Source: Pseudomonadota bacterium
GTDB taxonomy: Bacteria > Desulfobacterota > Desulfuromonadia > Geobacterales > Pseudopelobacteraceae
Assembly (NCBI GenBank): GCA_019352135.1
Contig: JABBNX010000004.1
Location: forward strand, 1 to 64,000
Direction: 5' to 3'
Length of the DNA: 64,000 bases
Part shown: in pieces, positions 3,899 to 36,136 of the stretch
Numbering within the stretch: position 1 is the first letter of the stretch
How the letters are laid out: every line of letters begins with the position of its first letter
Notes under the pieces: generated by a model
Database searches by the model: none
Seen by the model: the letters and a program-made list of their open reading frames with translations, nothing else
Told to the model about the DNA's origin: nothing
Translations under genes and position numbers: made by a program

Positions 3899-3918
3899 TT
3901 AAATGGGCACATGGGAAT
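3899..3918. repeat. attL of the integrated element (selC 3' end remnant)
   Basis: The sequence ttaaatgg plus gcacatgggaat is the same as the 3' end of selC at 13137-13161, except that five bases (cggaa, the acceptor-stem part) are missing here. The exact 12-bp core gcacatgggaat is at 3907-3918. Just inside, atgggaa (3911-3917) and ttcccat (3926-3932) form an inverted repeat, as core-type integrase sites do. The leftover cannot be a tRNA. Confidence 0.75.
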
Positions 3919-4325
3919 ACAAAAGTTCCCATATACGCTTAGATTAATTAAGTTATTTGCAATGTTATTTTGCTAGATACACCTAAAGTTACACCTAAAA
4001 GTTTCTGTCTATCATGATTTTACGTCAAAACTTGCAGCTGCAATATACTGGAACAGTGGTGACATTCCAATAAGAAACTGCACGGGGAAAAATATCACTA
4101 AAAGGTTTTGTGTATCTGATTTTGTTGCGGTTGTTTTTCTCCAGCTGAGTGCGGTCCCAATATGTTTTTCTGGCCGCGATTGCCATGGGGAGGGGTGGCA
4201 TGAGACGCGCTGCGCCGCTACGGTCACCTCTCTCACTGGGTGCGACAAATTTCCAGAGACTGTTAATCCCTCCGGAGTGTTGACAATGCCCATGTAACCG
4301 ATATACTCACGCCAGAGGTGTCACT
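3919..4325. other. Left end of the element: integrase arm-site motifs and promoter, no gene
   Basis: 407 bases without a credible gene. Two acaccta motifs (around 3980-3986 and 3991-3997, the second as agttacaccta) match those at the integrase end and are likely arm-type sites. A long imperfect hairpin lies around 4190-4240 (ggggtgg paired with tcacctct). A minus-strand ORF at 4012-4293 has no family resemblance and no ribosome binding site, so I leave it out. Confidence 0.5.
4280..4307 (+). promoter_or_regulatory. Sigma-70-type promoter of the secreted-protein gene
   Basis: The perfect -35 ttgaca (4280-4285), a 16-base spacer and the -10 tatact (4302-4307) predict a start near 4314. The ribosome binding site gaggtg and the ATG at 4326 follow directly. 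This gives the first left-arm gene its own promoter, independent of the element's main operon. Confidence 0.65.
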
Positions 4326-4679
4326 ATGAAAATGCTATTTTTATCTTCATTAACGATTTTCGGTTTGTCTATATTTGCTACTACTAAAACCTATGGTTAT
4401 TCTAATTTTGACTCAGTACACAAATATCCGTCTATGGACTGCCATAGTCCTTCTTCGCCACCGATAAGGTCAGAAAGGTTTAGGTATCGATCTCAAATTG
4501 ATGAGTACAACCAGCAAGTTGATCAATATAACTCAGATGTTTATAACTACTTAAGATGCATTAAAGATTATATAGTTGCCGCAGACAATGACATAATAAC
4601 AATTCAGAAGAACAGTGAAGAAGCGGCTAGGAGAGCCGAAGAATACTATTATCCCTTGCCATATGTAAATAGCCGGTGA
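4326..4679 (+). CDS. Small secreted protein of unknown function (element cargo)
   Basis: A 117-residue protein of no family I recognise. The first 24 residues look like a signal peptide (MKMLFLSS, a hydrophobic core ending near TYG), so it is probably periplasmic or secreted. The mature part is polar, starts with a Ser/Pro-rich stretch, has two cysteines (MDCHS and LRCIK) that could form a disulphide, and ends in a helix-prone segment rich in Asp, Glu, Asn and Tyr. The gene is markedly AT-rich compared with the host genes. It has its own good promoter (4280-4307) and a short hairpin just after its stop (4681-4697). Its position in the left arm suggests an accessory 'moron' gene, possibly acting at the envelope. 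Confidence 0.65.
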   Translation: MKMLFLSSLTIFGLSIFATTKTYGYSNFDSVHKYPSMDCHSPSSPPIRSERFRYRSQIDEYNQQVDQYNSDVYNYLRCIKDYIVAADNDIITIQKNSEEAARRAEEYYYPLPYVNSR

Positions 4680-4680
4680 T

Positions 4681-4697
4681 TGGTCTGCGTCAGACCA
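4681..4697. terminator. Hairpin after the secreted-protein gene
   Basis: tggtctg and cagacca form a perfect 7-bp stem around a 3-base loop directly after the stop codon. No T-run follows at once (the nearest is at about 4713), so it may be a 3'-end stabiliser rather than a full intrinsic terminator. Confidence 0.4.
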
Positions 4698-4849
4698 TTG
4701 GCGGAAATGTCCTTTTTCAGAGATTCAAACGATTCGCTGTCCATTATTAACCCATTCCCGCAACAGGTATTCTGTTAAATTCAACAGGTAAATATTTGAT
4801 TTTGTTGATGTTTTTCTATTGACGCCCTCTTTCCCCTGTGTTAGCTTCC

Positions 4850-5011
4850 CGTTTATCCGCACTTACTAAAGCTTCTCCCCTGCTTCCCCCGGCGACTAAT
4901 ACAACGCTACGGGATACATCAACGCCCCCGGTTTCCGCTGAGTGCGTTGGTAGGATGTGCCCTTACCGCAAGGAGGGCAGCACGTAAGTGCGGATAGTCC
5001 TACCGGCGCAC
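4850..5011 (+). ncRNA. Candidate structured RNA, class unknown
   Basis: There is no ORF of note in 4680-5050, but the second half is dense in complementary segments. gtgcg (4942-4946) plus ggtagga (4949-4955) pair with tcctacc (4998-5004) plus cgcac (5007-5011). Inside this, gccc (4959-4962) pairs with gggc (4975-4978). A 13-base segment tatccgcacttac (4854-4866) is perfectly complementary to gtaagtgcggata (4984-4996), which would cross the outer helix as a pseudoknot or act as an alternative fold. caacgc (4920-4925) and gcgttg (4944-4949) also pair. It lies just upstream of the small coupled ORFs, so it could be their leader or an independent RNA. The strand is uncertain. Confidence 0.45.
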
Positions 5012-5050
5012 TCTTATAGTGTCTGGAATCCAAGTTAAGGGGTGTGCAGT

Positions 5051-5251
5051 ATGCAGAAAAACGAACAGTATAAGCGTCTTGAACAAGAGAGACCCGAAGC
5101 AATCAAGGCAGGCATCACTTATGGGGGGCAGGTTGTCCCGTTGGTTGATATGGGGGATTTATCGGCGCTTTCTATTCTCAACCGTGGGAGCTGGTGGGAG
5201 CAAGAAACACTCCGCAATAAATCGGTCGTAATGGCCGGGGGTGCGGCATGA
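5051..5251 (+). CDS. Small element protein 1 of a coupled cluster
   Basis: A 66-residue protein from the ATG at 5051, chosen because aagggg lies 8 bases upstream; an in-frame GTG at 5042 would overlap that site. It is charged at the N-terminus (QKNEQYKRLEQERPE) and has a central VVPLVDMGDLSALSIL segment and a WW pair. I know of no family for it. It ends in VMAGGAA, and its stop overlaps the next start (ATGA at 5248-5251), so the two are translationally coupled. The same C-terminal motif ends the next ORF. It is probably an accessory or regulatory protein of the satellite. Confidence 0.55.
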   Translation: MQKNEQYKRLEQERPEAIKAGITYGGQVVPLVDMGDLSALSILNRGSWWEQETLRNKSVVMAGGAA

Positions 5252-5427
5252 AAAAAGATAACGTTCACCAGGATCTTTTCAGATGGTTATTACAAGATTT
5301 CAAGCCAGGTACAAGGATCGTCGTGTTAAAAGCAGCGATCAAGTACATGGATGATCATACGCAGGCATCCCTAAACGAATTTAAGCGGATAGGTCGCGCT
5401 TGTGTAATGCCAGGGGGTGCAGCATGA
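5248..5427 (+). CDS. Small element protein 2 of a coupled cluster
   Basis: A 59-residue protein whose ATG overlaps the preceding stop and whose own stop overlaps the next ATG (5424). It starts MKKDNVHQDLFRWLLQDF and ends CVMPGGAA, almost the same tail as the protein before it. The tail-encoding DNA, gtaatg followed by a gggggtgc ribosome binding site and atga, is repeated in both, so the tail is largely a by-product of a duplicated ribosome-binding module. I recognise no function. Confidence 0.5.
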   Translation: MKKDNVHQDLFRWLLQDFKPGTRIVVLKAAIKYMDDHTQASLNEFKRIGRACVMPGGAA

Positions 5428-5579
5428 CCATCGAAGAAATGATAGCAGAATTGATTCAGTTGAGATCGATACACGGAAAAGACGCCAGAATACTAGCCAA
5501 CCACGGTGAAACAGCAACACCTTATTTTATCCCGCCTGGTGACGGATGTCCCGGCTATATTTCACTAGAAAGCGAGTAA
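5424..5579 (+). CDS. Small element protein 3 of a coupled cluster
   Basis: A 51-residue protein starting MTIEEMIAELIQLRSIHG, with a helical N-terminus and a Gly/Pro-rich C-terminal part (FIPPGDGCPGYISLE). Its ATG overlaps the upstream stop (ATGA), and the next gene starts 4 bases after its TAA, giving a chain of four tightly coupled genes. I recognise no function. The case rests on coupling and the ribosome binding site, not on homology. Confidence 0.5.
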   Translation: MTIEEMIAELIQLRSIHGKDARILANHGETATPYFIPPGDGCPGYISLESE

Positions 5580-5583
5580 GAAC

Positions 5584-5835
5584 ATGACACGCATCGCAGG
5601 GACCAAAAACAGTACCAACCCGCCCGACGGCATTGAAGCCGCCCGCAAGATGGCGAGAATCAAGGCACACGAAGCCGCCCCCGTATGGGGACTAGACCGA
5701 GTAGAGATATCGCGCTACTGCAACCGGGGAGAAATCCCCGGAGCGGTAAAACTCGGGCGGATCTGGTACGTGACCCCAGCAGGAATGGATAAGCTGTTTG
5801 AAGCAAAGAAAAACAGGGTGCGGCGCCAGGTGTGA
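5584..5835 (+). CDS. Helix-turn-helix (excisionase/MerR-like) protein
   Basis: An 83-residue basic protein. The middle part (about residues 35-75) reads WGLDRVEISRYCNRGEIPGAVKLG and then IWYVTPAGMDKL, the pattern of the helix-turn-helix 17 / excisionase family: a short HTH that reads the DNA, then a strand carrying a W or Y and a 'P..G/A...L' helix. Such proteins act as excisionases or transcription regulators on mobile elements. It lies last in the cluster of four small genes, far from the integrase, so it may regulate the left arm rather than excision. The start at 5584 is coupled to the stop of the previous ORF. Confidence 0.6.
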   Translation: MTRIAGTKNSTNPPDGIEAARKMARIKAHEAAPVWGLDRVEISRYCNRGEIPGAVKLGRIWYVTPAGMDKLFEAKKNRVRRQV

Positions 5836-5862
5836 ATCTTCCGGCCGTCAGAGCATCCATCC

Positions 5863-5890
5863 TTGACATTGAAATTTATATATGTAGACT
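5863..5890 (+). promoter_or_regulatory. Putative promoter of the lipoprotein gene
   Basis: The -35 ttgaca (5863-5868), a 16-base spacer and the -10 tagact (5885-5890) have the same spacing and the same 'act' -10 ending as the promoter at 4280. The gaggtg ribosome binding site and ATG follow at 5901-5912. The two left-arm cargo genes thus have matching expression signals. Confidence 0.5.
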
Positions 5891-5911
5891 CGCTCATAAA
5901 GAGGTGTTGCC

Positions 5912-6328
5912 ATGGAAAAGCTACTCGTATTTGCCGCCGTTGTTTTCCTTTCAGGTTGCGCAGGAACACCACGCCCCACCACAACAGATTTATCAAGCGG
6001 CATGACTCGCCAGGAAGTGCTGCAGAAGTACGTACAACCGGTGAACGCTACCATGTCGAATGGTACGGATTACCTGATTTACAAATTTAATGATCACGCT
6101 TATGGCCGGGACGATAATTCTTACGCCCTTGGTTTCCAGAATAACAGGCTTGTGAGTGTCGCGCCACTACCGGAGGATCAACAAGAAATGGGGCCGATTG
6201 ATAGGGTTTTGCGCTCACGCCGACACTCTGTAAACTATGGCAATTCTTACATAGAAACCCCCGACGCATACGGGCCCGGTGTACATATGGATCAATACGG
6301 CCGGCCTGTGCGAGTAGTCCCTCAATAG
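5912..6328 (+). CDS. Small lipoprotein of unknown function (element cargo)
   Basis: A 138-residue protein with a clear type II signal: MEKLLVFAAVVF then the lipobox LSGC, with the lipidated Cys at position 16 followed by AG, so it is probably carried to the outer membrane. The mature part starts with a Thr/Pro linker, then 'LSSGMTRQEVLQKYVQP', which resembles the small outer-membrane SmpA/BamE-like fold's 'G.t..qv...lG.P' opening, and ends in a His/Asp/Gly-rich tail. The BamE-like reading is only a resemblance. It has its own promoter (5863) and is followed by two terminators. Surface cargo on satellites and prophages often changes phage sensitivity, which would be one testable role. Confidence 0.7.
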   Translation: MEKLLVFAAVVFLSGCAGTPRPTTTDLSSGMTRQEVLQKYVQPVNATMSNGTDYLIYKFNDHAYGRDDNSYALGFQNNRLVSVAPLPEDQQEMGPIDRVLRSRRHSVNYGNSYIETPDAYGPGVHMDQYGRPVRVVPQ

Positions 6329-6345
6329 ATCTAATCTTGAACAGG

Positions 6346-6385
6346 AAAGGCACGAAACCATATTACGGTGGTCACGTGCCTTTTT
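6346..6385 (+). terminator. Intrinsic terminator after the lipoprotein gene
   Basis: aaaggcacg (6346-6354) and cgtgcc (6375-6380) form the stem, followed by ttttt (6381-6385). It lies 18 bases after the lipoprotein stop. Confidence 0.75.
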
Positions 6386-6430
6386 ACTGATTGGTCCCCG
6401 CCCTTTTTGCGTTATTCGTTATTACCGGCG

Positions 6431-6456
6431 CCCGGCCATGCTTCCGGGTTTTTTAC
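6431..6456 (+). terminator. Second intrinsic terminator sharing the same 3' tail
   Basis: cccgg (6431-6435) and ccggg (6444-6448) form a stem followed by six T. The 3' tail tttttactgattggt is the same as that after the first terminator (6381-6395), so the unit looks partly duplicated. Confidence 0.6.
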
Positions 6457-6787
6457 TGATTGGTGTTCTGGTGCATGGCATAAAATAAGGCCGGGATCCC
6501 CAGGGGAGGGAAACCGGCCGTTTCCATATTCACCCTTGTCCGTAAAGGTGCCGTGTCAGGAACACCATGGAAATTCTCAATTCGGGGAAATCCAGTTTTC
6601 TGAGAAAATTCATGGTGCGCTGGCCGTTTTCCTCTTTGTCCCCGTCTGATCTATACCGAGCAGAAAAACTGGCCGGCCATGTTTGGCATGGTTCAAACAG
6701 TGTGCAAAATCCTTCCTGCTGATAGAAAATACACCCTGGTCCGCAGGAGGTCACGACACCCCGTTTCCAATGACATCCGCTCATGGT
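6457..6787. other. Hairpin-rich spacer between convergent arms of the element
   Basis: No gene. ggccgg (6489-6494) and ccggcc (6513-6518) form one stem. caccatggaaattctca (6563-6579) and tgagaaaattcatggtg (6601-6617) form another long imperfect stem. The left-arm (+) and main (-) operons converge here, so these hairpins probably end transcription from both sides. Confidence 0.45.
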
Positions 6788-7624
6788 TTAAACTCCTACG
6801 TTTATTGATTGTCCGAAGCTGCTGGAACCGGAAGTCTGGCCGCCGGTGTTGTTCCATAGGCCCTGCAGATATTCAAGCGGTTTCCATCCTGCCTGATAGG
6901 AATTATTAGCATTGGTCACGTTGAAATTATTGGCGGCTTGCGCCCCTGCCTGGTTGTAGGCGTTTTGTGCTGTGGCCTGGTCTGCTCCTGCCTTTTCATA
7001 AGCACCTGAATAGGCCGCATTGGTGTCGTTTGCTGCTTGCAGTGCCAGCCCTGACGACCAGAGCCCCCGCTTGGCGAGGTTGTTGTCCAGTGCCTGCATG
7101 TCCTTGCCTTTGGCATAATCGAGCCCCTGTGTGTAGCCTCCAGCCTGGAATGCTCCCCCGCTTTGATACTGCGGTGTTTGATAGACAGGGAGATTTATTC
7201 CGCCTGGGTCTGCTGCGCCGGTCGGCATATTCACCGTTGGGTCAGGGGCTTGAAAGTATGCTTTAATACCTTCCATCCCGTTTGCAAACTCCTTGCCGGG
7301 GTCTAATCCGGGGATAAGGGGTGGACTATAGGCTTTCCCTCCTTTGTCATAAGTAGATGAGTTACCGGTTGCATCGTAAAGACTGCCCCATGCACCCGGG
7401 GTGTATCCTGTTTGCATTTGCCCGGGAGCCTGGCTGTTGGTGGCAATGGGGTTAAACGTCGCATTGGACGCGTTCGACATGCTGCCTGTGCCGCCGTATG
7501 GCAGGCCGCTCTGGGTGTAGGTGTTGAGGATGTTACCGATTGAGGAACGGTAAAGGTCCTGCCGCTCTGCCGCTGTTAGTGGTTTGCTCGCTGTCTGACT
7601 GCTGGTTGTGCTTTCTCCGCCCAT
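6788..7624 (-). CDS. Virion-like Ala/Gly/Asn-rich protein (possible DNA-injection or internal virion protein)
   Basis: A 278-residue protein, low in charge, rich in Ala, Gly, Asn, Gln, Ser and Thr, with no cysteine. It opens with a Ser/Thr/Gln-rich stretch, then LTAAERQDLYRSSIGNIL, and the C-terminal half has a segment ALDNNLAKRGLWSSGLALQA followed by repeats of Ala-Asn-Gln helix. This resembles minor virion or DNA-ejection proteins of podovirus- and siphovirus-type phages as I remember them; it is a weak, composition-based assignment. The ATG is preceded by aaaggag. It is the last gene of the main operon, after the small terminase. If it is a virion protein, the satellite alters or builds part of the particle that carries it. 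Confidence 0.55.
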   Translation of the reverse strand: MGGESTTSSQTASKPLTAAERQDLYRSSIGNILNTYTQSGLPYGGTGSMSNASNATFNPIATNSQAPGQMQTGYTPGAWGSLYDATGNSSTYDKGGKAYSPPLIPGLDPGKEFANGMEGIKAYFQAPDPTVNMPTGAADPGGINLPVYQTPQYQSGGAFQAGGYTQGLDYAKGKDMQALDNNLAKRGLWSSGLALQAANDTNAAYSGAYEKAGADQATAQNAYNQAGAQAANNFNVTNANNSYQAGWKPLEYLQGLWNNTGGQTSGSSSFGQSINVGV

Positions 7625-7751
7625 AATGATTCTCCTTTCTGTTCTTTCAATTGAACTGGTTTGGTTACTGGCATCTGTCCTCTTCCAATCTGTGCATTCA
7701 TGTCATAGTCCCCCCCTTATGCTGCAGTTATTCCCCCGGTCGCCGGCACTC

Positions 7752-8300
7752 TCAGAGGATGTCATAATCAGTTCCCTTCGCCGGTCCATATCCGTAGCGT
7801 GACAGGTCCACCGGGCACACATCGACGTTTAGGTTCAGGTTGACATTCTTGGTCGCCGGGTAAGAGTCCGTCAGCTTCAATCCCTCCACTGTGGCCCTGA
7901 GTGATACGTTTGGATCATTACCGTCTACGTGATGCTTGAGGCGCGCTATCAAGTGTCCACGGGTCAGCCCCTGCGCCTCCATGATCGTACTTATGGCAAG
8001 GTTTATGTCTGGGTCCTTCATGAGTCTGTTACCAATGGCCTTGGCCGAATCATACGAACCGACATCAAAGGCAGCGACCGCGCTCTGTGTTTGTGACGTG
8101 CCGGAACAGATCTCCGCGACGAACCGTTGCTCCTTGGCTGTCAGGTTATCCAGAACGGCGGCTTGTGCTGCGTGCTGGCGTAGGCGCTGGAGCCGCTTAC
8201 TTATTGCAGCCGGTGATACGTCGAAATGGGCGGCTATGGCTGTTTGTTGGTCTCCCCGATCTGCCATCTCCAAGAGTAATGCATCGTCTATTTTTCGCAT
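7752..8300 (-). CDS. Terminase small subunit-like protein
   Basis: A 182-residue protein. Residues 1-45 look like an HTH (AIAAHFDVSPAAISKRLQRL). Residues about 52-110 carry the small-terminase pattern 'LTAKEQRFVAEICSGTSQTQ' followed by AAFDVGSYDSAKAIGNRLMKDPDINLAI, as in the Terminase_2 family that recognises packaging sites. The ATG is preceded by aaggag. A small terminase without a large one is what packaging-redirecting satellites carry: it would steer a helper phage's large terminase to the satellite's own DNA. No large subunit or portal lies nearby. Confidence 0.78.
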   Translation of the reverse strand: MRKIDDALLLEMADRGDQQTAIAAHFDVSPAAISKRLQRLRQHAAQAAVLDNLTAKEQRFVAEICSGTSQTQSAVAAFDVGSYDSAKAIGNRLMKDPDINLAISTIMEAQGLTRGHLIARLKHHVDGNDPNVSLRATVEGLKLTDSYPATKNVNLNLNVDVCPVDLSRYGYGPAKGTDYDIL

Positions 8301-8396
8301 TGTGAGGGCTCCTTTGACGTTTACTTTCCCGCCTGGTTCATTTTGTTGATTTGAATAATCTGGTTAATTTTCCCATGATGATAAAAACCGGGTACT

Positions 8397-8597
8397 TTAT
8401 ACGTCCGCCCAATTACCGGTTCTCACACCAGTTAGCCCACAATGCCCACTTTTATTATCGGTGCGACTGAGGGTGACCCATGCTGCACACCCTTCGCCAA
8501 GACATTTATCATTTATGGGTGCGGTTCCGCTTCTGGACCTCCCCGGTTTTGCAAATGGGCACCAATATTCCCCGGCTTCGCTCAATAACATTTTCAT
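8397..8597 (-). CDS. Small cysteine-rich protein, probably metal-binding
   Basis: A 66-residue protein with four cysteines in the order CPFAK, then KCLGEGCAAW, then GHCGL, the pattern of small zinc-ribbon-like proteins common on phages and islands. The start at 8597 is backed by aaggag 8 bases upstream. It lies between the replication gene (with the iteron cluster between them) and the small terminase, all on the same strand. The function is unknown. The conserved Cys spacing and the strong ribosome binding site make it a real gene in my view. Confidence 0.6.
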   Translation of the reverse strand: MKMLLSEAGEYWCPFAKPGRSRSGTAPINDKCLGEGCAAWVTLSRTDNKSGHCGLTGVRTGNWADV

Positions 8598-8636
8598 AAT
8601 TTTTTTCTCCTTAACGGCCTATTTTAACCTTAAAAT

Positions 8637-8880
8637 GCTACCTGTAAGCTACCTGTAAGCTACCTATCCATATTTATAAATAGTTGGTATTAAAGGCTTT
8701 ATGCCACCTATGCCACCTATGCTACCTATTATTCGCACGTATAGAGATTTTATATCTACAGACATTACATTGTCTTTTTTTCGTATAGGCTTTTAAAATA
8801 GGTGCCATACGTGGCTTAGGTGGCATAACATCTATAATTACGGCTAGTTACAATGTTGATAGGTGGCATATAGGTGGCAT
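8637..8880. repeat. Iteron cluster, likely replication origin of the element
   Basis: About ten copies of a tgcYaccta-type motif lie in this gene-free stretch. On the plus strand there are three at 11-base spacing (gctacctgtaa at 8637, 8648 and a variant at 8659) and three at 9-base spacing (tgccaccta, 8702-8728). In the opposite orientation there are taggtgcca (8799) and taggtggca (8817, 8860, 8871). Between the two arms the DNA is very AT-rich (8670-8700 and 8740-8800), as an unwinding region would be. The cluster lies directly after the replication gene. P4 and many plasmids start replication at such iterons. Confidence 0.7.
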
Positions 8881-8886
8881 TTCGTG

Positions 8887-10467
8887 TTATTCCCCCCAAT
8901 CAACACTTGATTTTATTAACGATTCAAAGTGTTTCCGGCACGTTTCCAATGGTGGTACATGGTAGTGATAGGCCTGTGTAGCGCCAATACTCGGGTATTC
9001 GGTTTCAATTTGTCTGTAGCATCTTGATTTCCAACCTTTCGGTAATACTTTGCGGAGAGACATCCCGAATAGAGTTTGCCCCGCTCTATGATGTATCGAC
9101 CTATCGGCCATGTTCGCGATATATGACCCGTAGAGCTTTTCAGTAGGGATATATTTCCAACCACTACCAGGAATGAGCTCCCCCTCAGACAAGCGGTGGA
9201 ACCACCATTGGAAGAACGGGTCAAGGCTCTGCAGCTTTTGTTCAAATAGCCCTGATGTCTGCGGTACATCCCGAATTTGAAAGTCACCCAGATCGTGATT
9301 TTGGAGAGCATGGAGCATTGCAGCAAGACCGTCTGCTTCCATTTCATCTACCAATGCTTTAAAATAGGCTTTGTCCTGCATCTTCGCGTCTGATACGTCC
9401 AGGACACAAAAGCGGCGTTCTTCTAGTCCAGCCGGGACAACCCAGTCATTATTGGAGGCCATAAGGATGTGGAGCATGTTCCGGACAAATACCACGTCAC
9501 GCCCTTTGCCTTCGATCGTCAGTGTAGGTTCGGTGATAACGCCCTTCAAAACAGACTCGCCCTGTTTATCACCAGCCCAAAACGCCTCGTCAGCGAATAG
9601 AAAAACGACATCTCGCAAATGGCTGTTAAAATTCCCTGTCAAGTATTTGCTGCTCGTAATATGCGCGGCGTTCCCTCCGAACAGCTTACACATATAGTTG
9701 CCTAACATGCCCTTGCCTGTGCCGCGCTTCCCACGGAGGACTAAGGCAACCTCTGCTTGTTCCCCCGGCTTCTGAACGGCGGTAGCAAGCCATCCCATTA
9801 CATATTGGTACGCGGTCTCGTTATCGGAACATACAACATGGAAAATATGGTCATGCATCCTCCGCCACGATCCATCTGCTGGCTGAACGGAAAAGCCCCG
9901 CCATAGGTTATAAAATCCCGGCGTTTCCTTGCCAGGCTCCAACGTGATCCCTTCATATTGGCGGCGGTCTCCATGCTTTAACCACACTTCTCCAAGCGGC
10001 TTATACACAGGTTCCCCGGCTTTGCTCTCTCCGAAATATACGATATTGTTTAAGTGGTAGTTCTGGAAGTCGATAAAGCTTGAATGGTGCAGTTCGTTGC
10101 GTCCCATAAGTGCATTCCACGATTCAGCGAATACATAAGTTCTGCCGCCTTCTTTGCTTACAAAGTGCGTTTCATTCAGTTTTGTTACCCTCTCCGTGGT
10201 TTCTTGCTCAGGGTCTGTTCCACCGTTAGGACGTTGCTGGGTATCGGTATGAACTATTTTAGAAGATGTTTTTACCGTCTGTTTTCGTGCGCTTTTCTTC
10301 GCTGTGTCCCTGCTGGGGATAGGGCCATCCCAGGGGATAAATTCACCGTTTTCAGATTTACAGAAGTATGAGTACCCATCCAGACTCCTATCAGGCTCTG
10401 TTTTTGTCACTGGTTGCGGGGTATCCATGAAGATGTCGTAGTAATAAAGTTGCAGGGTTTTACTCAT
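8887..10467 (-). CDS. Replication protein with SF3/DUF5906-type helicase domain
   Basis: A 526-residue protein. Residues 1-110 are a polar, poorly conserved linker. The core has Walker A GKRGTGKG (246-253), a Walker B-like VVFLFADEA (288-295) and the sensor motif LMASNND, which together match the DUF5906/D5-like superfamily 3 helicases of phage and satellite primase-helicases. The C-terminal part (from about 400) looks like a winged helix that may bind the origin. I do not see a clear N-terminal primase catalytic triad, so it may be helicase only. The start has a strong ribosome binding site, gggaggtgatca, and overlaps the previous stop. It probably replicates the element from the iterons at 8637-8880. 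Confidence 0.8.
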   Translation of the reverse strand: MSKTLQLYYYDIFMDTPQPVTKTEPDRSLDGYSYFCKSENGEFIPWDGPIPSRDTAKKSARKQTVKTSSKIVHTDTQQRPNGGTDPEQETTERVTKLNETHFVSKEGGRTYVFAESWNALMGRNELHHSSFIDFQNYHLNNIVYFGESKAGEPVYKPLGEVWLKHGDRRQYEGITLEPGKETPGFYNLWRGFSVQPADGSWRRMHDHIFHVVCSDNETAYQYVMGWLATAVQKPGEQAEVALVLRGKRGTGKGMLGNYMCKLFGGNAAHITSSKYLTGNFNSHLRDVVFLFADEAFWAGDKQGESVLKGVITEPTLTIEGKGRDVVFVRNMLHILMASNNDWVVPAGLEERRFCVLDVSDAKMQDKAYFKALVDEMEADGLAAMLHALQNHDLGDFQIRDVPQTSGLFEQKLQSLDPFFQWWFHRLSEGELIPGSGWKYIPTEKLYGSYIANMADRSIHHRAGQTLFGMSLRKVLPKGWKSRCYRQIETEYPSIGATQAYHYHVPPLETCRKHFESLIKSSVDWGE

Positions 10468-10645
10468 TGATCACCTCCCGCGCCGTCACAATAACGGCGT
10501 TCATGGTGTCATGATCGAATGTACCGAATAGTTGCGTTGTTTGTGAGCTTGTGGTAGGCTTCAGGCACAAATTGTCTTTTGCTTTCCCCTTCTCCAAGCC
10601 CGTTTCCGGTTGCCCCCCGGTTGCGGGTTTCCTGTTTTTAGGCAT
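10460..10645 (-). CDS. Small protein between alpA and the replication gene
   Basis: A 61-residue hydrophilic protein (MPKNRKPATGG, Lys/Thr/Gln-rich, then FDHDTMNAVIVTAREVINE). It overlaps alpA by 8 bases at its start and the replication gene by 8 at its end, with ggaggt before its ATG, so it is part of the same coupled operon. I recognise no family. It could be an accessory replication or regulatory protein. Confidence 0.55.
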   Translation of the reverse strand: MPKNRKPATGGQPETGLEKGKAKDNLCLKPTTSSQTTQLFGTFDHDTMNAVIVTAREVINE

Positions 10646-10892
10646 GGCTTAAAACCTCCCCTGACGATTGAATCAGTGCCCGGATGTCCTCTACACGCCA
10701 ACAGGTTGTGCGCTCTGACAGTTTGATCGAAGCCGGATAACGTCCCGATGCCACGCCCGACCACCATGATGACTTGCTTACGGGGATAATTGGCGCAATC
10801 CCCTTCTTTTTGTCGCCCAAAATTTGCGACAACCTCACAAGACCTGTTTCCGGTAAAACATTTTGTACCGCTTTTGTTTGCTGGCTCTGCAT
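10638..10892 (-). CDS. alpA: AlpA-family transcription regulator
   Basis: An 84-residue protein from the ATG at 10892, chosen because aaggag lies 8 bases upstream; a longer reading from 10934 would run through a terminator hairpin. The sequence LPETGLVRLSQILGD then VSKSSWWSGVASGRYPASIKLS then TTCWRVEDIRALIQ is the AlpA/MerR-like short HTH. AlpA proteins activate replication and excision genes in P4-like satellites and PICIs. It is the first gene of the coupled alpA, small ORF, rep operon and sits behind a folded leader with an intrinsic terminator (10915-11142), which probably limits its expression. Confidence 0.85.
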   Translation of the reverse strand: MQSQQTKAVQNVLPETGLVRLSQILGDKKKGIAPIIPVSKSSWWSGVASGRYPASIKLSERTTCWRVEDIRALIQSSGEVLSHA

Positions 10893-10914
10893 GGCCTGCT
10901 CCTTTTGAGTGAGC

Positions 10915-11142
10915 AACAAAAAAGCCTGTGACAAAACGCCGGAACATAATCAAATGCTCTTGGTGTTTCATCACAGGCTTTCCGAAAAGTCGCGCTTTCG
11001 CGGGGGTCGTTGGTCTGTTGCTTATGTGGTTTGTACCGTATCCGTTGGGCTTCCGCTGCTGCCTGTTTGTCTCAACCGTCTAATTAGTGACGGGGGCTTA
11101 CTCTCCCTTGCTGCTCTGGTTACATCTTTCAAGGGTAAGCCC
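10915..11142 (-). ncRNA. Folded leader or regulatory RNA with terminator, upstream of alpA
   Basis: 275 bases without a gene hold, read on the minus strand: a 13-bp stem (plus-strand arms gggcttac 11094-11101 with ccttg 11106-11110, against caagg 11130-11134 with gtaagccc 11135-11142); ccgtc/gacgg (11076-11080, 11089-11093); a cgcg-aaag-cgcg hairpin (10991-11002); and a perfect 11-bp stem aaagcctgtga (10971-10981) with tcacaggcttt (10921-10931) followed by a T-run. The last is an intrinsic terminator about 30 bases before the alpA ribosome binding site. By analogy with P4 immunity, this may be an attenuator or a short RNA that keeps the element silent. The analogy is my inference. Confidence 0.55.
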
Positions 11143-11167
11143 GGCTTTCACATCGTACCGCGTTACG

Positions 11168-11539
11168 TTATGGTTGGATAAAATGTACCTCTTTCAAATT
11201 ATCATAGTGCGAATGAAACTCAATTCTTCCTTGAAAAAGGGCCGGCATCTCCGGGAACATCTCCATAAATTTAGGCATTGCTTCTTTGAATGTTTTTTTT
11301 AAATGTGCCGCTATCCCTTGATGTCGTATTCCGTAATTTTGGTGTATATTTAAAGGCCTAACTCCAGATTGACTGTCATGGTAAGTACTCATAAGCTGGA
11401 AATCCCAACTTTCCCACTCCTCATCTGTTGTACCCGGCTTGCGTCTCAACTCATAGTCTATTGACCTGAGTACTTCGTATGGATCGCCGTAACGTGAAAC
11501 TGTTCCTTTGCCGGGTATTTTCAAAATAAATCGTTCCAT
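11168..11539 (-). CDS. Protein of unknown function beside the integrase
   Basis: A 123-residue soluble protein starting MERFILKIPGKG and rich in charged and aromatic residues, including TTDEEWESWDFQL and QGRIEFHSHYDNL. I recognise no family. I choose the ATG at 11539; a GTG at 11557 would lie inside the promoter. The upstream promoter places the transcript start about at the ATG itself, so the mRNA may be leaderless. It lies between the alpA operon and the integrase and is flanked by ggtgta(a/c) motifs shared with the element ends, which hints at a role in integration or its control. Confidence 0.55.
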   Translation of the reverse strand: MERFILKIPGKGTVSRYGDPYEVLRSIDYELRRKPGTTDEEWESWDFQLMSTYHDSQSGVRPLNIHQNYGIRHQGIAAHLKKTFKEAMPKFMEMFPEMPALFQGRIEFHSHYDNLKEVHFIQP

Positions 11540-11546
11540 GCCCACA

Positions 11547-11606
11547 AGATAAAGCACCTAATAGGATGGTGTCAACATAAAAAAGACGTAATAGGATGGT
11601 GTAAAC
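11547..11606 (-). promoter_or_regulatory. Tandem promoters with a 30-bp direct repeat
   Basis: taataggatggtgt followed by (c/a)aac occurs at 11559 and 11589, exactly 30 bases apart. Read on the minus strand each copy carries a -35: ttgaca (11575-11570) with -10 ttatct (11552-11547), and tttaca (11605-11600) with -10 ttttat (11582-11577). Both spacers are 17 bases. The repeat covers the -35 and spacer, so it is also a likely operator pair. It contains atggtgt.aac, close to the arm-site motif at the element ends. Confidence 0.6.
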
Positions 11607-11633
11607 CTTCAACGTTACACACTTTTTATGGTT

Positions 11634-12881
11634 TTATGCCGCTTTCTGCTTGAACGGCAACACTTTTGCACCCGCCTTAAGACCGTCCAGGTAATCAGCC
11701 CAGAGCTGCATCATTTTTTTACGCTCATCAAGGTGTGCCGTCCGATTATACGCCCTGCCGTTCGGGTCTTTGACTGCGTGTGCAAGTTGGTGTTCAATGA
11801 AGTCAACACGAAAGCCCAAGATTTCATCGAGTATCGTTCTGGCTGTCGCTCTGAATCCGTGGCCGGTGATTGTGTCGCCATCGAAGTCCATGCGCCGAAA
11901 AGCGGCATTGATAGTGTTGTCGCTCATACATCGGTCGAATGATCTTGTTGAGGGGAAAACATATTTACTATTTCCAGTAAGAGGCTTAAGTGCTGTCAGG
12001 ATCTCTATCGCTCTGACTGACAGTGGTACGAGGTGAGCAACTTTCATCTTCATCTTCTGTGCAGGAATGTTCCATTCAGCCACTTCAAAGTCAATTTCAG
12101 ACCACTCCATATGCCGCAACTCACCAGGCCGCACAAATAGCAGCGGCAATAACTGCAACGCACTCTTGGCAACAAAGCCCCCCTGATATCCGTCTATGGC
12201 TCTGAGTAGTGGTGCAAGTTCCTTTGGGTCCGTTATTGATGACATATGCTTACGTGTCTTGCTGACGGCTGGTAGGTGTTTGCTCAGGCTTGTGGCAATA
12301 TTATATTCAGCCCTGTCTGTCCCAATCGCGTAAACGAATACCTGACTTGCTATCGTTCTACACCGGCGGGCAGTATCAACAGCCCCCCTCTCTTTCACCT
12401 GGTCAAGAATAGTTCGGATGTCTTTGGCTGTGACTTCGGTTATCGGCTTTCCACCGATCCGAGGAAACATATCTTTTTCCATACGGGTCATAATCGTATC
12501 AGCATGGTCTGCTGTCCATGCACTATCACCCAACATTTTCTTGTGCCATTCACGGGCGATACATTCAAAGCTGTTTGCCAGCAATTCTATCTTGGCTGCT
12601 TTGACGGCCTTACGATCTGTCGAAGGGTCAACACCTGCGGCAAGGAGCTTTCGTGCCTCCTCCCGCTTCTCACGGGCTTGTGCAAGTGATATTTCAGGAT
12701 AGGTGCCGAACGAGATGGTTTTGCTCTTGCCTGAGTGGGAATATTTGAAGCGCCACCACTTGCCGCCAGATGTCGCAACAAGAAGAAAAAGACCACCACC
12801 ATCAAACAGGTGTTGCGGCTTGTTTCCGGCTTTGGCTCTTTCTATCTCTAAAGCTCCTAGTGGTAACGTTTTCCTTGCCAT
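11634..12881 (-). CDS. int: P4-type tyrosine integrase
   Basis: A 415-residue site-specific recombinase. The N-terminal 90 residues are the DUF4102 arm-binding domain (LFDGGGLFLLVATSGGKWWR, then ISFGTYPEISLAQAR). A core-binding domain follows (about 105-205) and then the catalytic domain with R251 (RPGEL), H341-x-x-R344 (HGFRATAR), H368 in HQLAH and the nucleophile Y378. All catalytic residues are present, so it should be active. The ATG follows aaaggag, and a gttacacca motif sits between that site and the start. It lies 260 bp from selC and reads away from it, as is usual for tRNA-integrating islands. It integrates into the 3' end of selC. Confidence 0.95.
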   Translation of the reverse strand: MARKTLPLGALEIERAKAGNKPQHLFDGGGLFLLVATSGGKWWRFKYSHSGKSKTISFGTYPEISLAQAREKREEARKLLAAGVDPSTDRKAVKAAKIELLANSFECIAREWHKKMLGDSAWTADHADTIMTRMEKDMFPRIGGKPITEVTAKDIRTILDQVKERGAVDTARRCRTIASQVFVYAIGTDRAEYNIATSLSKHLPAVSKTRKHMSSITDPKELAPLLRAIDGYQGGFVAKSALQLLPLLFVRPGELRHMEWSEIDFEVAEWNIPAQKMKMKVAHLVPLSVRAIEILTALKPLTGNSKYVFPSTRSFDRCMSDNTINAAFRRMDFDGDTITGHGFRATARTILDEILGFRVDFIEHQLAHAVKDPNGRAYNRTAHLDERKKMMQLWADYLDGLKAGAKVLPFKQKAA

Positions 12882-13031
12882 TGGTGTAACTCCTTTCTGC
12901 TGTGATGCCCATATAATAAGCGTTTGTGAACTATTGGTGTAACATCTCGCGACAAAAATAGGAGCAAATGGTGTAAGTTTTTTTGGCTTTTATGAGGTGC
13001 ATTGAAGCTGTTACACCATAAGTTACACCTA
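12881..13031. repeat. Integrase arm-type sites (ggtgtaac repeats)
   Basis: This 150-base stretch has five copies of a tggtgtaac-type motif: ttggtgtaac (12881, 12934), atggtgtaag (12968), its reverse gttacaccat (13010) and agttacacct (13021). The last is found again, base for base with one more (agttacaccta), at the left end (3987-3997). A sixth, partial copy lies at 11614. Such clusters near one core site are what tyrosine integrases of this type bind. Confidence 0.6.
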
Positions 13032-13081
13032 TAATTAGTGGACTGCAAGGGATAATATAGGACAATAAAGGACAATAGATA

Positions 13082-13110
13082 ATAAAAAAGCCCCTAATTT
13101 CAAGGGGCTT
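13082..13110 (-). terminator. Terminator directly downstream of selC, inside the element
   Basis: Read on the minus strand, aagcccc and ggggctt (13104-13110 and 13088-13094) form a 7-bp stem followed by a T-run. It lies about 30 bases after the 3' end of the tRNA but on the element side of the att core, so the element supplies it and cuts selC off from selB. Confidence 0.75.
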
Positions 13111-13136
13111 AAGACTTCTCAGGAGCGTATAAAACA

Positions 13137-13161
13137 TTAAATGGCGGAAGCACATGGGAAT
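13137..13161. repeat. attR: element-host junction within the selC 3' end
   Basis: ttaaatgg, cggaa and gcacatgggaat together form the tRNA 3' end (CCA, discriminator, 3' acceptor strand and part of the T arm, on the minus strand). The same sequence without cggaa is at 3899-3918. The 12-bp exact core is 13150-13161. Confidence 0.75.
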
Positions 13162-13239
13162 CGAACCCACCGGGGAGATTTCTCATCCCCCCCACTGGTT
13201 TTGAAGACCAGGCCGCCCACCAGCGACGGACGTGCTTCC
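13142..13239 (-). tRNA. selC: Selenocysteine tRNA (anticodon UCA)
   Basis: A 98-base tRNA with CCA encoded. The 8-bp acceptor stem ggaagcac/gtgcttcc, the long variable arm (gggggg...ctcccc region) and the UCA anticodon (complement of tga at 13202-13204) in a 7-base loop mark it as tRNA-Sec rather than tRNA-Ser. It is the integration site of the element at 3907-13161, and its 3' end now comes from the element side of the junction; the acceptor stem is fully paired, so the gene should work. A LysR gene lies 25 bases upstream on the same strand. Confidence 0.95.
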
Positions 13240-24028: not shown

Positions 24029-24849
24029 TGCTCATGTCGATTCCAATTGAAAATCTGTCATTACTGGGGGCTCTTGCTCCTCTTCGACAAAAAACTGACA
24101 GTAATGCCATTCAGAAGAATAATGGTTTTGCAGAAAAACTCGACAAGGCTCTCGGGAACGGTGACTCTTCCTCGTTCACCGCCGCTGATAATGCCAGGGA
24201 AGCGGCTGAATCTCTCACCCTGCAGATGCTGCAAAACACTCTTGCCCTGTCAGGTGATTCCACTTCAGAAAGCCAAACCAACTCACCCCCACTATCCTTT
24301 TCTTCAGCAAACGCATTTCTTCACGCCTACCGTGACAATCTTGCCGGGGGAGGTGACGCGGCGCCGACCTCTACTGCGCCCGTATCGTCACAGCTTCAGG
24401 ACTTAGCAGATGGTGCCCCGGTCGCTGCTCAAGCAACAGCACAAGATTCCTCACTCCACACTGGGACAGCTTGGCTTGATCCTGTTATTTCCAGGGCGTC
24501 ACAGAAATATGGTGTTGATGCCGGACTGATAAGAGCGGTGATAAAGGCTGAGAGCGACTTCAACCCTCAGGCTGTTTCGCCTGCCGGGGCCCGCGGGCTG
24601 ATGCAGCTTATGCCGGCTACTGCGCGTTCGCTTGGTGTGGCCGATTCATTCGACCCGGAGCAGAATGTTATGGGTGGTACCCGGTTCTTGAAAGATATGC
24701 TCCAGCGTTATGGCGGTAATGTTGACGCAGCCCTGGCGGCATACAACTGGGGTCCAGGTAACGTCGACAAACGTTCCGATCATCTGCCGCGCGAAACACG
24801 CGACTATCTGGCGCGTGTCAAACAGCTGTACGCTACATACAGTGTCTGA
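24028..24849 (+). CDS. Lytic murein transglycosylase (SLT domain), flagellar-type
   Basis: A 273-residue protein. Residues 1-145 are Ser/Ala/Gln-rich and of low complexity with no signal peptide; residues about 150-265 are the SLT domain with the catalytic Glu in IKAESDFNP, then GLMQLMPATA and AAYNWGPG. The lack of a signal peptide and the position beside a sigma-54 regulator and chemotaxis genes suggest export through a flagellar route, as for FlgJ-like enzymes that open the wall for the rod; this is inferred. An in-frame ATG at 24034 is a second possible start. Confidence 0.85.
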   Translation: MLMSIPIENLSLLGALAPLRQKTDSNAIQKNNGFAEKLDKALGNGDSSSFTAADNAREAAESLTLQMLQNTLALSGDSTSESQTNSPPLSFSSANAFLHAYRDNLAGGGDAAPTSTAPVSSQLQDLADGAPVAAQATAQDSSLHTGTAWLDPVISRASQKYGVDAGLIRAVIKAESDFNPQAVSPAGARGLMQLMPATARSLGVADSFDPEQNVMGGTRFLKDMLQRYGGNVDAALAAYNWGPGNVDKRSDHLPRETRDYLARVKQLYATYSV

Positions 24850-24960
24850 TTATTCCACGCTATAATTAAAGATGGCACGCAAAGCAACTACTCCCTTTCT
24901 GATTCAGGATGACCAGGGGTGATTGGGTGCCAGCCTTTCTATTTTCGATACGAGGCACAC

Positions 24961-27297
24961 ATGGCTCCACTCTATATTATCGGCACCGGACCCGGCACTG
25001 TCTGTCACCTTACCGATGCAGCCAAGGAGGCGCTTGCTGTCTCTGACATAATTATCGGGTATGATAATTATGTCGAACTGGTCCGGCCGTTGCTGGCGGG
25101 CAAACAGGTCATATCAACCGGTATGATGCAGGAAGTGCAACGCTGCCGTGAGGCCATTAACCTGGCGCGTACCGGAGAAGCGGTTGCACTTGTCTCAGGT
25201 GGCGATTCCGGAATTTACGGCATGGCCGGCCTGGTGCTGGAACTGGTTGAAATGGATGCCGGGGAGTATCCAAACGCGCCTCGCATTGATGTCCGGATAA
25301 TCCCGGGTATTTCCGCTGTTCAGGCTGCAGCTGCGCTGCTTGGCGCTCCACTGATGCATGATTTTGCGGTGATCTCGTTATCAGACCTGCTGACTCCGTG
25401 GGATCTGATTAAAACCAGATTAGAAGCGGCTGCTCGGGCTGACTTTGTCATCGCCATATACAATCCGCGCAGTAAAAGTCGCAGAACCCAGATACAGGAA
25501 GCACAGAACATCATCCTGGCGCATCGCCCCCCTGAAACCCCGGTTGGAATCGTCCGCAACGCCTGTCGTGAGGGGCAAACGGTTGCCGTTACTACTCTCG
25601 GGCAGATGTTCGACCATGAAATCGATATGACAAGTATTGTCTTGATCGGCAACGCCAGTACCTTCATCGATGCCGAGGGACGTATCGTAACGCCGCGAGG
25701 CTATGCTGCCAAATATGGTCAGGGTGCTGCTGTGGCTGAATCAGTTACAGGGCAGGAGCCGCTTTTGCACCCTGGAGCGGTCATGTTTTGCGGAACTGCC
25801 TCAGATGTCGGAAAATCGATTATCACATCCGGCTTTTGCCGTTGTCTGGTCAAGCGCGGGGTAGGTGTGGCTCCCTTCAAATCCCAGAATATGTCACTTA
25901 ATTCCTCTGTTACCCCTGAGGGAGGAGAGATAGGCCGCGCCCAGGCGGTTCAGGCTCAGGCGTGCAATATTGATCCTCATACCGACATGAATCCGGTTTT
26001 ACTTAAGCCGAATTCGGATATAGGGAGTCAAATTGTTGTTCAGGGGCGGCCTGTCGGCAATATGTCGGTAGCAGAATATGATGCCTACAAGCCGGCCGCA
26101 TTCAAAAAAATAGAGGAGAGTTTTGACCGGCTTCGTCATGCATATGAATTTATTGTTATTGAAGGAGCGGGAAGCATTTCGGAAATCAACCTGAAAAAGA
26201 ATGATATTGCCAACCTCAGGATTGCATTAATGGCGCGATGCCCGGTGATTCTGGTTGCCGACATCGATCGTGGCGGAGTTTTTGCCCAGATTATCGGTAC
26301 GATTGAACTGCTTGAACCGCGGGAACGCTCCTCTATTAAAGGGATAATTATCAATAAATTTCGCGGCGATGTCGATATTCTGAAGCCTGGTATCGACTTT
26401 ATTGAACAGCGTACCGGCGTGCCGGTACTGGGAGTCCTGCCCTGGTTTGCCGATTTGAACCTGCCTGCGGAAGACAGTGTCGCGCTTGGTCAATGTTCCA
26501 AAGCTGTCTGTAACGTGGCTGGCCTCAAAAAAATCCACATTGGTATCCTCAAGCTTCCGAGAATATCCAATTTTACTGATTTCGACCCGCTGCAGAACGA
26601 GCCGGATGTCCAACTCAGTTATGTCGAGATGCCGGATCAGCTGCAGGGTCTGGATATCCTGATTATTCCGGGCAGCAAATCAACCATAGCAGATCTGCAT
26701 TTCCTGATGGAGCGAGGTCTTTATGACGCCATACGCGACTTTAACGGACATATTGCCGGGATATGCGGTGGTTTCCAAATGCTGGGTACAGCGGTGCTTG
26801 ATCCAAACGGCGTTGAATCATCTGTCAAAGAGACCCACGGGCTAGATCTGCTTCCCTCCACAACGGTTCTGTTAATGGAAAAAGAGACTCACCAGGCGCT
26901 GGCGTATCTGGGTGAAGCGGGATTGACCGTCGCTCCAGAATGTAATGGAATTATGACCGGTTATGAAATTCATATGGGTTTGACGACTCTTGACAAGGGA
27001 TTGCGGCCATTCTCACGAATCTTCCGGCGCGGTACTGCCTCGGTTTCAATTGAAGACGGAGCTGTTTCGCACGATGGGAGGATCTTCGGCACCTATCTTC
27101 ATGGCCTTTTCGAAAACAACCGCTTCAGAGAAGTTTATCTGAACGGTATCCGTCTTGAAAAGGGGATGGCGCTCAGCAGCGGAGCACATAAACAGCCGCA
27201 ACCTGATCCGTTTGATCAACTGGCAGAGCAGTTTGGAAAATATCTTGATCTGCCGCGTATGCTGGCAATTTGTGGGCTGGGCAGTGACACCCCCTGA
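24961..27297 (+). CDS. Fused precorrin-3B C17-methyltransferase and cobyric acid synthase (CobJ-CobQ)
   Basis: A 778-residue protein with two B12 enzymes. Residues 1-245 are a SAM-dependent tetrapyrrole methylase of the CobJ/CbiH type (IGTGPGTVCHLTDAA, SGGDSGIYGMA, YNPRSKSRRTQI) that contracts the ring. After a linker, residues 275-778 are CobQ/CbiP: an N-terminal ATPase (FCGTASDVGKS, FKSQNMSLNSSV) and a class I glutamine amidotransferase with C602 in GICGGFQMLG, which amidates four side chains of the corrin ring. I choose the ATG at 24961; a GTG at 24919 is in frame but poorly supported. The fusion joins an early and a late step and is uncommon. It overlaps cbiB. Confidence 0.93.
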   Translation: MAPLYIIGTGPGTVCHLTDAAKEALAVSDIIIGYDNYVELVRPLLAGKQVISTGMMQEVQRCREAINLARTGEAVALVSGGDSGIYGMAGLVLELVEMDAGEYPNAPRIDVRIIPGISAVQAAAALLGAPLMHDFAVISLSDLLTPWDLIKTRLEAAARADFVIAIYNPRSKSRRTQIQEAQNIILAHRPPETPVGIVRNACREGQTVAVTTLGQMFDHEIDMTSIVLIGNASTFIDAEGRIVTPRGYAAKYGQGAAVAESVTGQEPLLHPGAVMFCGTASDVGKSIITSGFCRCLVKRGVGVAPFKSQNMSLNSSVTPEGGEIGRAQAVQAQACNIDPHTDMNPVLLKPNSDIGSQIVVQGRPVGNMSVAEYDAYKPAAFKKIEESFDRLRHAYEFIVIEGAGSISEINLKKNDIANLRIALMARCPVILVADIDRGGVFAQIIGTIELLEPRERSSIKGIIINKFRGDVDILKPGIDFIEQRTGVPVLGVLPWFADLNLPAEDSVALGQCSKAVCNVAGLKKIHIGILKLPRISNFTDFDPLQNEPDVQLSYVEMPDQLQGLDILIIPGSKSTIADLHFLMERGLYDAIRDFNGHIAGICGGFQMLGTAVLDPNGVESSVKETHGLDLLPSTTVLLMEKETHQALAYLGEAGLTVAPECNGIMTGYEIHMGLTTLDKGLRPFSRIFRRGTASVSIEDGAVSHDGRIFGTYLHGLFENNRFREVYLNGIRLEKGMALSSGAHKQPQPDPFDQLAEQFGKYLDLPRMLAICGLGSDTP

Positions 27298-35365: not shown

Positions 35366-36136
35366 TCAGAGCTTTTTTGTGTCTGCGCTCTTGTTGCAGA
35401 CCGGGCATTCCTGCATGGAAAAAGGCTTTTCCAGGCGACATGCCGCGAGAAGCGCATCATTAAGAAATATGTCACGCGTCGGTCCGTCGGCCATTACGCC
35501 CCCTTCGTAGAGAATAATAGTCCGCGGGCAGAGATCCAGGACCATATCGAGATCGTGACTGGTGAAAATCTTCGTATGGTGAAATTCCCGTAATAGAGAC
35601 ATGAGCTGACGCCGCGCGTAAGGGTCAAGCCCGCTCGTCGGTTCATCCATGACCAGAATGTCGGGAGACATGGCCAGCACGGTGGCAATGGCAACACGTT
35701 TTTTTTCGCCGCCGGAAAGCAAATAGGGTGGCTTGGCGCTCAAATGCCCGGCACCGACACGTTCGAGAGCTTCTCTCACCCGCAGATCAACTTCTGAACC
35801 TGAGAGCCCCAGGTTCAGTGGTCCAAAGGCAACATCTTCGAATACGGTCGGCATGAAAAGCTGGTCGTCAGGATTTTGAAAGACCATCCCGACGGTGCGA
35901 CGGATGTCCGGCAGCGTCCCCTTCGAAAGCCGTGTGTCTCCAATTATGACCTCCCCGGAGGTTGCTTCCAGGCAGCCGTTTAAATGTTGCAGAAGGCTGG
36001 ACTTGCCTGCTCCATTGGCACCGATGATCGCGACCGACTCACCGTGCGTGATGCGAAAGGAAACATCCTTGATGGCTATCGTGCCATCCGGATACACGTG
36101 CTGTAAATTTTTTACCTCGACGATGTGGTGGCTCAT
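35366..36136 (-). CDS. cbiO: Cobalt/nickel ECF transporter ATPase CbiO
   Basis: A 256-residue ABC ATPase that powers an energy-coupling-factor metal transporter. Walker A is GANGAGKSSLL, the Q-loop FQNPDDQLF, the signature LLSGGEKKRVAIA and Walker B ILVMDEPTSGLDP. Its start overlaps the stop of cbiQ (ATGA). The C-terminus ends in a CPVC pair. No cbiM/cbiN substrate subunit is beside it. The divergent nikR gene suggests nickel as the substrate, but the B12 genes nearby leave cobalt open. Confidence 0.9.
   Translation of the reverse strand: MSHHIVEVKNLQHVYPDGTIAIKDVSFRITHGESVAIIGANGAGKSSLLQHLNGCLEATSGEVIIGDTRLSKGTLPDIRRTVGMVFQNPDDQLFMPTVFEDVAFGPLNLGLSGSEVDLRVREALERVGAGHLSAKPPYLLSGGEKKRVAIATVLAMSPDILVMDEPTSGLDPYARRQLMSLLREFHHTKIFTSHDLDMVLDLCPRTIILYEGGVMADGPTRDIFLNDALLAACRLEKPFSMQECPVCNKSADTKKL

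Follow-up and report, generated by a model that had tools for sequence, protein, structure and literature searches.

The feature described here occupies positions 8636–8879 of the analysed stretch of DNA (the window, 64 kb) and consists of eleven 10-mers that fit WGCYACCTAT with at most one mismatch, arranged as four mirrored blocks. The outer left block (8636–8667, plus strand) contains three copies in 11-bp steps (at 8636, 8647 and 8658) and the inner left block (8702–8729, plus strand) three copies in 9-bp steps (at 8702, 8711 and 8720). The core between the arms (8730–8797) is AT-rich, with 72% A+T as compared to 50% in the window. On its other side, the inner right block (8798–8825, minus strand) comprises three copies in 9-bp steps (at 8798, 8807 and 8816), and the outer right block (8859–8879, minus strand) two copies in 11-bp steps (at 8859 and 8870). 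In the left arm, 44 bp separate the outer from the inner block (counted from the copy at 8658 to that at 8702), and in the right arm 43 bp (from 8816 to 8859). The initial annotation had reported about ten tgcYaccta copies in some 245 bases, in convergent arms around AT-rich DNA, and both points agree with this arrangement; the 11- and 9-base periods which it had assigned to one arm are real, but both arms carry both. The whole putative origin (8633–8882) is an imperfect inverted repeat, in which the spacers between the blocks pair too (fold z about −6).

The periodicity is nearly perfect, with 18 of 18 matching positions when the array is compared with itself at lag 11 and 17 of 18 at lag 9. 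The array has a two-armed repeat score of 9, whereas none of 60 dinucleotide shuffles scored above 4 and the remainder of the 64-kb window does not rise above 5. The word TGCYACCTAT, with up to one mismatch, is found 18 times in the window versus 5.6 ± 2.4 times in shuffles. The motif had been described as unique in the window, which is true of its clustering, as no second cluster exists, but not of single matches: ten lone matches to WGCYACCTAT (at most one mismatch) are present outside the array, including an exact one at 21819. Repeats scattered over the host genome had been named as an observation that would speak against an origin; tandem pairs of the motif were found nowhere in the 3.8-Mb host genome outside the array. 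An Rfam search of the array region matched no family.

The array lies directly 3' of a gene on the minus strand (8887–10467), ending 8 bp past its stop codon. The gene product (526 aa) is a D5/DUF5906 helicase of the SF3 type. In Pfam, it matches DUF5906 (E 3.7e-20), while the VapE-like match and the C-terminal Pox_D5 winged-helix match are slightly below the cut-offs; in PHROGs, the matches are confined to the helicase half of phage primases. Pfam and PHROGs scans, which also covered nine other main ORFs of the element, detected no primase domain. With neither a TOPRIM nor another primase domain, the 526-aa protein differs from the alpha protein of P4-type satellites, in which a TOPRIM primase, a helicase and an origin-binding domain are fused. 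The AlphaFold2 model (54 sequences, mean pLDDT 88) was compared with the PDB in Foldseek; the nearest structure is the C-terminal region of the phage NrS-1 primase, followed by the SaPI5 primase-helicase and by PriRep1 with dsDNA. The last 115 residues form a confident winged helix (pLDDT 91). A fold comparison of this winged helix alone returned no close origin-binding domain (best E 0.028), with weak matches to a DNA-bound replication terminator protein and to Orc1/Cdc6.

Helicase and array are part of an integrated element of about 9.24 kb (3919–13161), which is missing from two related genomes of the same genus (L132 and L133). Both align unbroken down to position 13137 and resume at 3918, the two matches sharing 25 bp at the 3' end of the tRNA, and their sequence contains the intact empty site; this delimits the element as 3919–13161. 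The integration target is the selenocysteine tRNA (tRNA-Sec) gene of this Geobacter-type host (13142–13239, minus strand), the 3' end of which is the att site (attB). The att core GCACATGGGAAT is present on the left (3907–3918), with a flank that is devoid of 5 bp found in the empty sites, and on the right (13150–13161). A tyrosine integrase gene (11634–12881, minus strand) adjoins tRNA-Sec, and 81–82% identical copies are located by tRNA-Sec in two related genomes. Two copies of a TTACACCTA-type repeat (3978–4000 and 13012–13034, both on the plus strand) may be integrase arm sites, as are probably the TTGGTGTAA/TTACACC-type repeats found in both orientations near the right end (12600–13034). 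Two 26-nt direct repeats, 85% alike and 30 bp apart (11551–11606), are situated between the integrase and the next ORF and could be regulator sites. The small regulator gene (10638–10934, minus strand) is AlpA/excisionase-like, with weak matches (Phage_AlpA E 0.034, excisionase PHROG 0.019). One of the two elements with these integrase copies (L146), also at tRNA-Sec, combines an integrase of 81% identity with an unrelated DUF3987 helicase, and inverted 9-bp arrays follow just 3' of the gene for this helicase (11345–11414 of L146). An exchange of the replication module thus seems to have taken place.

The terS-like gene (7752–8300, minus strand) encodes an N-terminal HTH and a Terminase_2 stretch; the Terminase_2 match (29.7 bits, cut-off 26.1) covers 58 aa only, and PHROG 51 is matched with E 1.3e-10. 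Homologues with 42–61% identity occur in six other genomes of the order (L162–L167). Five of the six loci have tRNA genes, several have integrases, and none matched the virion genes used for comparison; this looks like a terS-bearing satellite family in Geobacterales. No relative of the terS-like protein was found among viral contigs. The neighboring 278-aa ORF (6788–7624, minus strand), rich in glycine and asparagine, has a homologue of 53% identity in a 41.9-kb viral contig/prophage, whose major capsid protein is of the SU10 type; the homologous gene belongs to the virion cluster there. The ORF would represent a single structural-type gene within a satellite. One relative of the 278-aa protein was found among viral contigs, and no match among phage records. 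An SU10-type capsid was not found in the host genome by a search in which the control was silent as well. The description of the element as a satellite, originally a guess, is backed by the integrase, the att sites, the size and the terS-like gene. In terms of the features that define PICIs, the element has an integrase at one end with site-specific att sequences and a terS homologue, which is present in some PICIs; of the primase and replication initiator, separate or fused, it has the helicase alone. The element is PICI-like, and it is not classed as a PICI because a primase was sought and not found.

The conservation of the array was analyzed for homologous helicases, which were collected in 141 genomes of this order, in genome contigs and in viral contigs; those of phages and plasmids were listed. 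A locus was considered positive when the two-armed score reached at least 5, with p ≤ 0.01 versus shuffles, within 480 bp 3' of the helicase. After removal of redundant copies, the window and 15 other loci had such an array 3' of the helicase, and none was seen in the segments upstream of the gene or 2 kb distant from it. A second test, independent of the motif, asked at which lag (5–24) the sequence repeats with at least 16 of 18 matches. Lag 9 reached this level in 13 of 33 chromosomal loci; elsewhere one locus did so at lag 11 (the window) and one at lag 12, with zero cases in the upstream and distant controls. The positive loci span other Geobacteraceae, Proteobacteria and viral contigs, and the layout is kept while the 9-mer is usually changed (AGTCCTAGC three times and its inverse in L058, GATTGTTCA three times in L087, TGTCATACC in Geomonas). 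The scan of relatives that the initial annotation had proposed recovers the two-armed 9-bp layout 3' of homologous helicases, with a repeat word that usually differs.

The difference between motifs drops with rising helicase similarity, for the C-terminal part (Mantel p 0.0025) and for the ATPase part (p 0.005). Since both parts track the repeat word, this result does not single out the word-reading domain; a first motif-versus-protein test, in which only the C-terminal domain tracked the word, was dropped after better-chosen motifs gave the same for both parts. In a tree of 109 helicases, one clade from viral contigs is negative throughout (62 of 62), whereas 25 of the 47 others are positive (Fisher p 5e-12, for a grouping that was first noticed in the tree itself). 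The 22 negatives outside the clade are in part explained by short contigs, displacement (L047, at +456) and strict thresholds. The nearest relative by sequence (L017, 49%) has no such array in the 353 bp available on its contig. Locus L022 was at first considered a possible full prophage; its left flank carries chromosomal genes and no terminase or capsid gene was seen, which makes it satellite-like.

Gram-negative PICIs are among the closest known systems: others have demonstrated that their origin has this organisation (Fillol-Salom et al. 2018, PMC6092414), and the 3'-rep region of EcCICFT073 was shown to act as an origin (PMC6092414). In the EcCICFT073 sequence, convergent TGTCTACC-type repeats with steps of ~9 and 11 bp follow a gene with D5_N, DUF5906 and Pox_D5; their periodicity is modest, lags 9 and 11 each giving 13 of 18 matches. 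The window element shares with it the two convergent iteron sets, the AT-rich stretch, the position directly 3' of a DUF5906/Pox_D5 rep gene, the spacing of the repeats at about 9 and 11 bp, and the order of integrase, small regulator, rep and ori. The two differ in the repeat word (TGTCTACC versus TGCYACCTA) and in gene content: EcCICFT073 has D5_N in its rep and possesses capsid genes but not terS, whereas in the window element the rep is a helicase alone, a terS-like gene is present and a capsid gene is absent. BLASTP of the full-length EcCICFT073 rep against the window helicase was not significant. The pri-rep-ori module of SaPIs (SaPI5, PDB 7ola/7om0; PriRep1, 7pds) has the same helicase fold (Foldseek E 3e-11) and an origin 3' of rep (PMC6092414); in contrast to the window element, SaPIs have a Gram-positive host and divergent transcription, and a PDB sequence search with the window helicase did not match the SaPI reps. 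The PICMI satellites of Vibrionaceae, in the parts of the report considered here (PMC10803314), are similarly small, with an integrase, AlpA, few genes and no capsid-remodelling genes, and carry a DUF5906 or DUF3987 primase; unlike the window element, they are described there as inserted at fis and without terS.

The cluster is, with high probability, the replication origin of the 9.24-kb integrative phage satellite, because its layout is conserved 3' of helicases and the published organisation of PICI origins is the same. The elements of an iteron-type origin, i.e., direct repeats, an AT-rich region and an adjacent initiator gene, are all found at the locus. An iteron origin beside the replication gene had been suggested from the outset, and with the adjacent D5/DUF5906 helicase, the conserved layout and the PICI precedent it is the best reading of the array. 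After induction, the element would excise at tRNA-Sec, and the C-terminal winged helix of the helicase may read the repeats. Each convergent arm could then position one helicase ring, the two being placed head to head; the AT-rich core (8730–8797) would melt, the rings would unwind outwards, and two forks would leave. Priming would be supplied by the host (DnaG) or by a helper phage, because the element is without a recognisable primase. The helper phage presumably packages the replicated element, with the terS-like protein steering the helper terminase. Such an origin would carry the PICI type over to Desulfuromonadota and to a helicase that has no primase of its own.

The array is also found between the helicase and the terS-like gene, which is 340 bp off and encodes an N-terminal HTH, and it could accordingly be read as a packaging (pac/cos-like) site or an operator of the terS-like protein. 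Phages offer a parallel. The best helicase matches among phage records include Mesyanzhinovviridae, and in two members of this family AAGTTAAGT-type 9-bp arrays are located in non-coding DNA just upstream of terS: in phage AN14 (L175) at 35588–35615, with another near the start of the genome (164–190), and in phage CN1 (L176) at 24802–24972, in the gap that precedes the gene for the small terminase. Upstream of terS, the array is two-armed in CN1 and one-armed in AN14, and these arrays may be origins or packaging sites. Nevertheless, a packaging or operator function is an unlikely explanation for the window array: arrays trail the helicase at many loci where no neighboring terS-like gene was seen (e.g., L046, L030, L029, L045 and L018), the TerS homologues of other elements are mostly without an adjacent two-armed array, and EcCICFT073 is without TerS, yet its 3'-rep region acts as an origin (PMC6092414).

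As DNA, the array region folds into one long imperfect hairpin (MFE −41.6, z about −6), and the conserved feature might be a large stem-loop (cruciform) 3' of rep, as proposed for pRN1 and phage BIP-1, with the repeats being incidental. In the crenarchaeal plasmid pRN1, a stem-loop of 100 nt is required 3' of the gene for the primase-helicase, a protein with a C-terminal winged helix (PMC4234260). Its essential origin segment is thus placed like the window array; unlike the latter, this archaeal plasmid origin is reported as a stem-loop without iterons (PMC4234260). However, convergent repeat arms necessarily pair, the 9-bp tandem repeats within the arms are conserved although a hairpin has no need of them, and the fold strength among the relatives ranges from z −1.8 to −10.6, which makes the stem-loop very improbable as the conserved feature, although a cruciform may still play some part. 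Least probable of all is that the repeats are operators through which the helicase or a small regulator controls its own transcription, with the origin elsewhere: weak promoter-like matches are present in the region (5 versus 2.0 expected), but the array is 3' of the helicase, not at a promoter, in all positive relatives and upstream in none, and eleven spaced copies with an AT core exceed what an operator needs.

With the array taken as an origin, the main interest lies in the conserved 9-bp grammar, which occurs outside PICIs too. In the tailed-phage contig L058, the gene order is endolysin, primase-helicase, array, HTH gene and large terminase, and in L087 it is primase-helicase, array, tape measure, large terminase and capsid; the layout is therefore not PICI-specific. 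One may speculate, with less confidence than doubt, that two-armed 9-bp arrays make up an origin class common to D5/SF3-type helicases, those of tailed phages included, and not a PICI trait. The step would then stay constant as words diverge, since each arm would template the assembly of one helicase ring, and a 9-bp step would rotate successive sites by ~51 degrees, near the 60 degrees between the protomers of a hexamer. If so, the 9-bp rhythm could locate phage origins that are still unknown, e.g., in Mesyanzhinovviridae. The layout itself (9-bp steps, convergent arms, 3' of a helicase) amounts to a simple rule by which origins can be sought, and if one ring is loaded per arm, the combination of a constant step and variable words would allow a direct test of how a self-loading helicase is placed on duplex DNA.

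The tandem word of the window itself was found in 25 viral contigs, where about one contig is expected by chance for the longer motif-first search, assuming a collection of some 40 Gb. In 13 of the 25, which are closely related (L178, L180, L184, L188–L190, L192, L195, L196, L198, L199, L201 and L202), the word follows a 541-aa gene on its 3' side, at a distance of 187–230 bp. This helicase-like gene, of another family, matches primase families in their helicase half only and gave no tblastn match to the window helicase. The 13 contigs amount to one or two independent cases, but the search that revealed them made no use of the helicase. Contig L182 from the same scan was counted as a chance match, as its neighboring gene looks structural. 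In further large phage contigs, ACTTAACTT-type 9-bp arrays are situated at a distance from the helicase stop codon, at +3.8 kb in L070 and L071, +5.0 kb in L104, +6.8 kb in L074 and +9.2 kb in L080.
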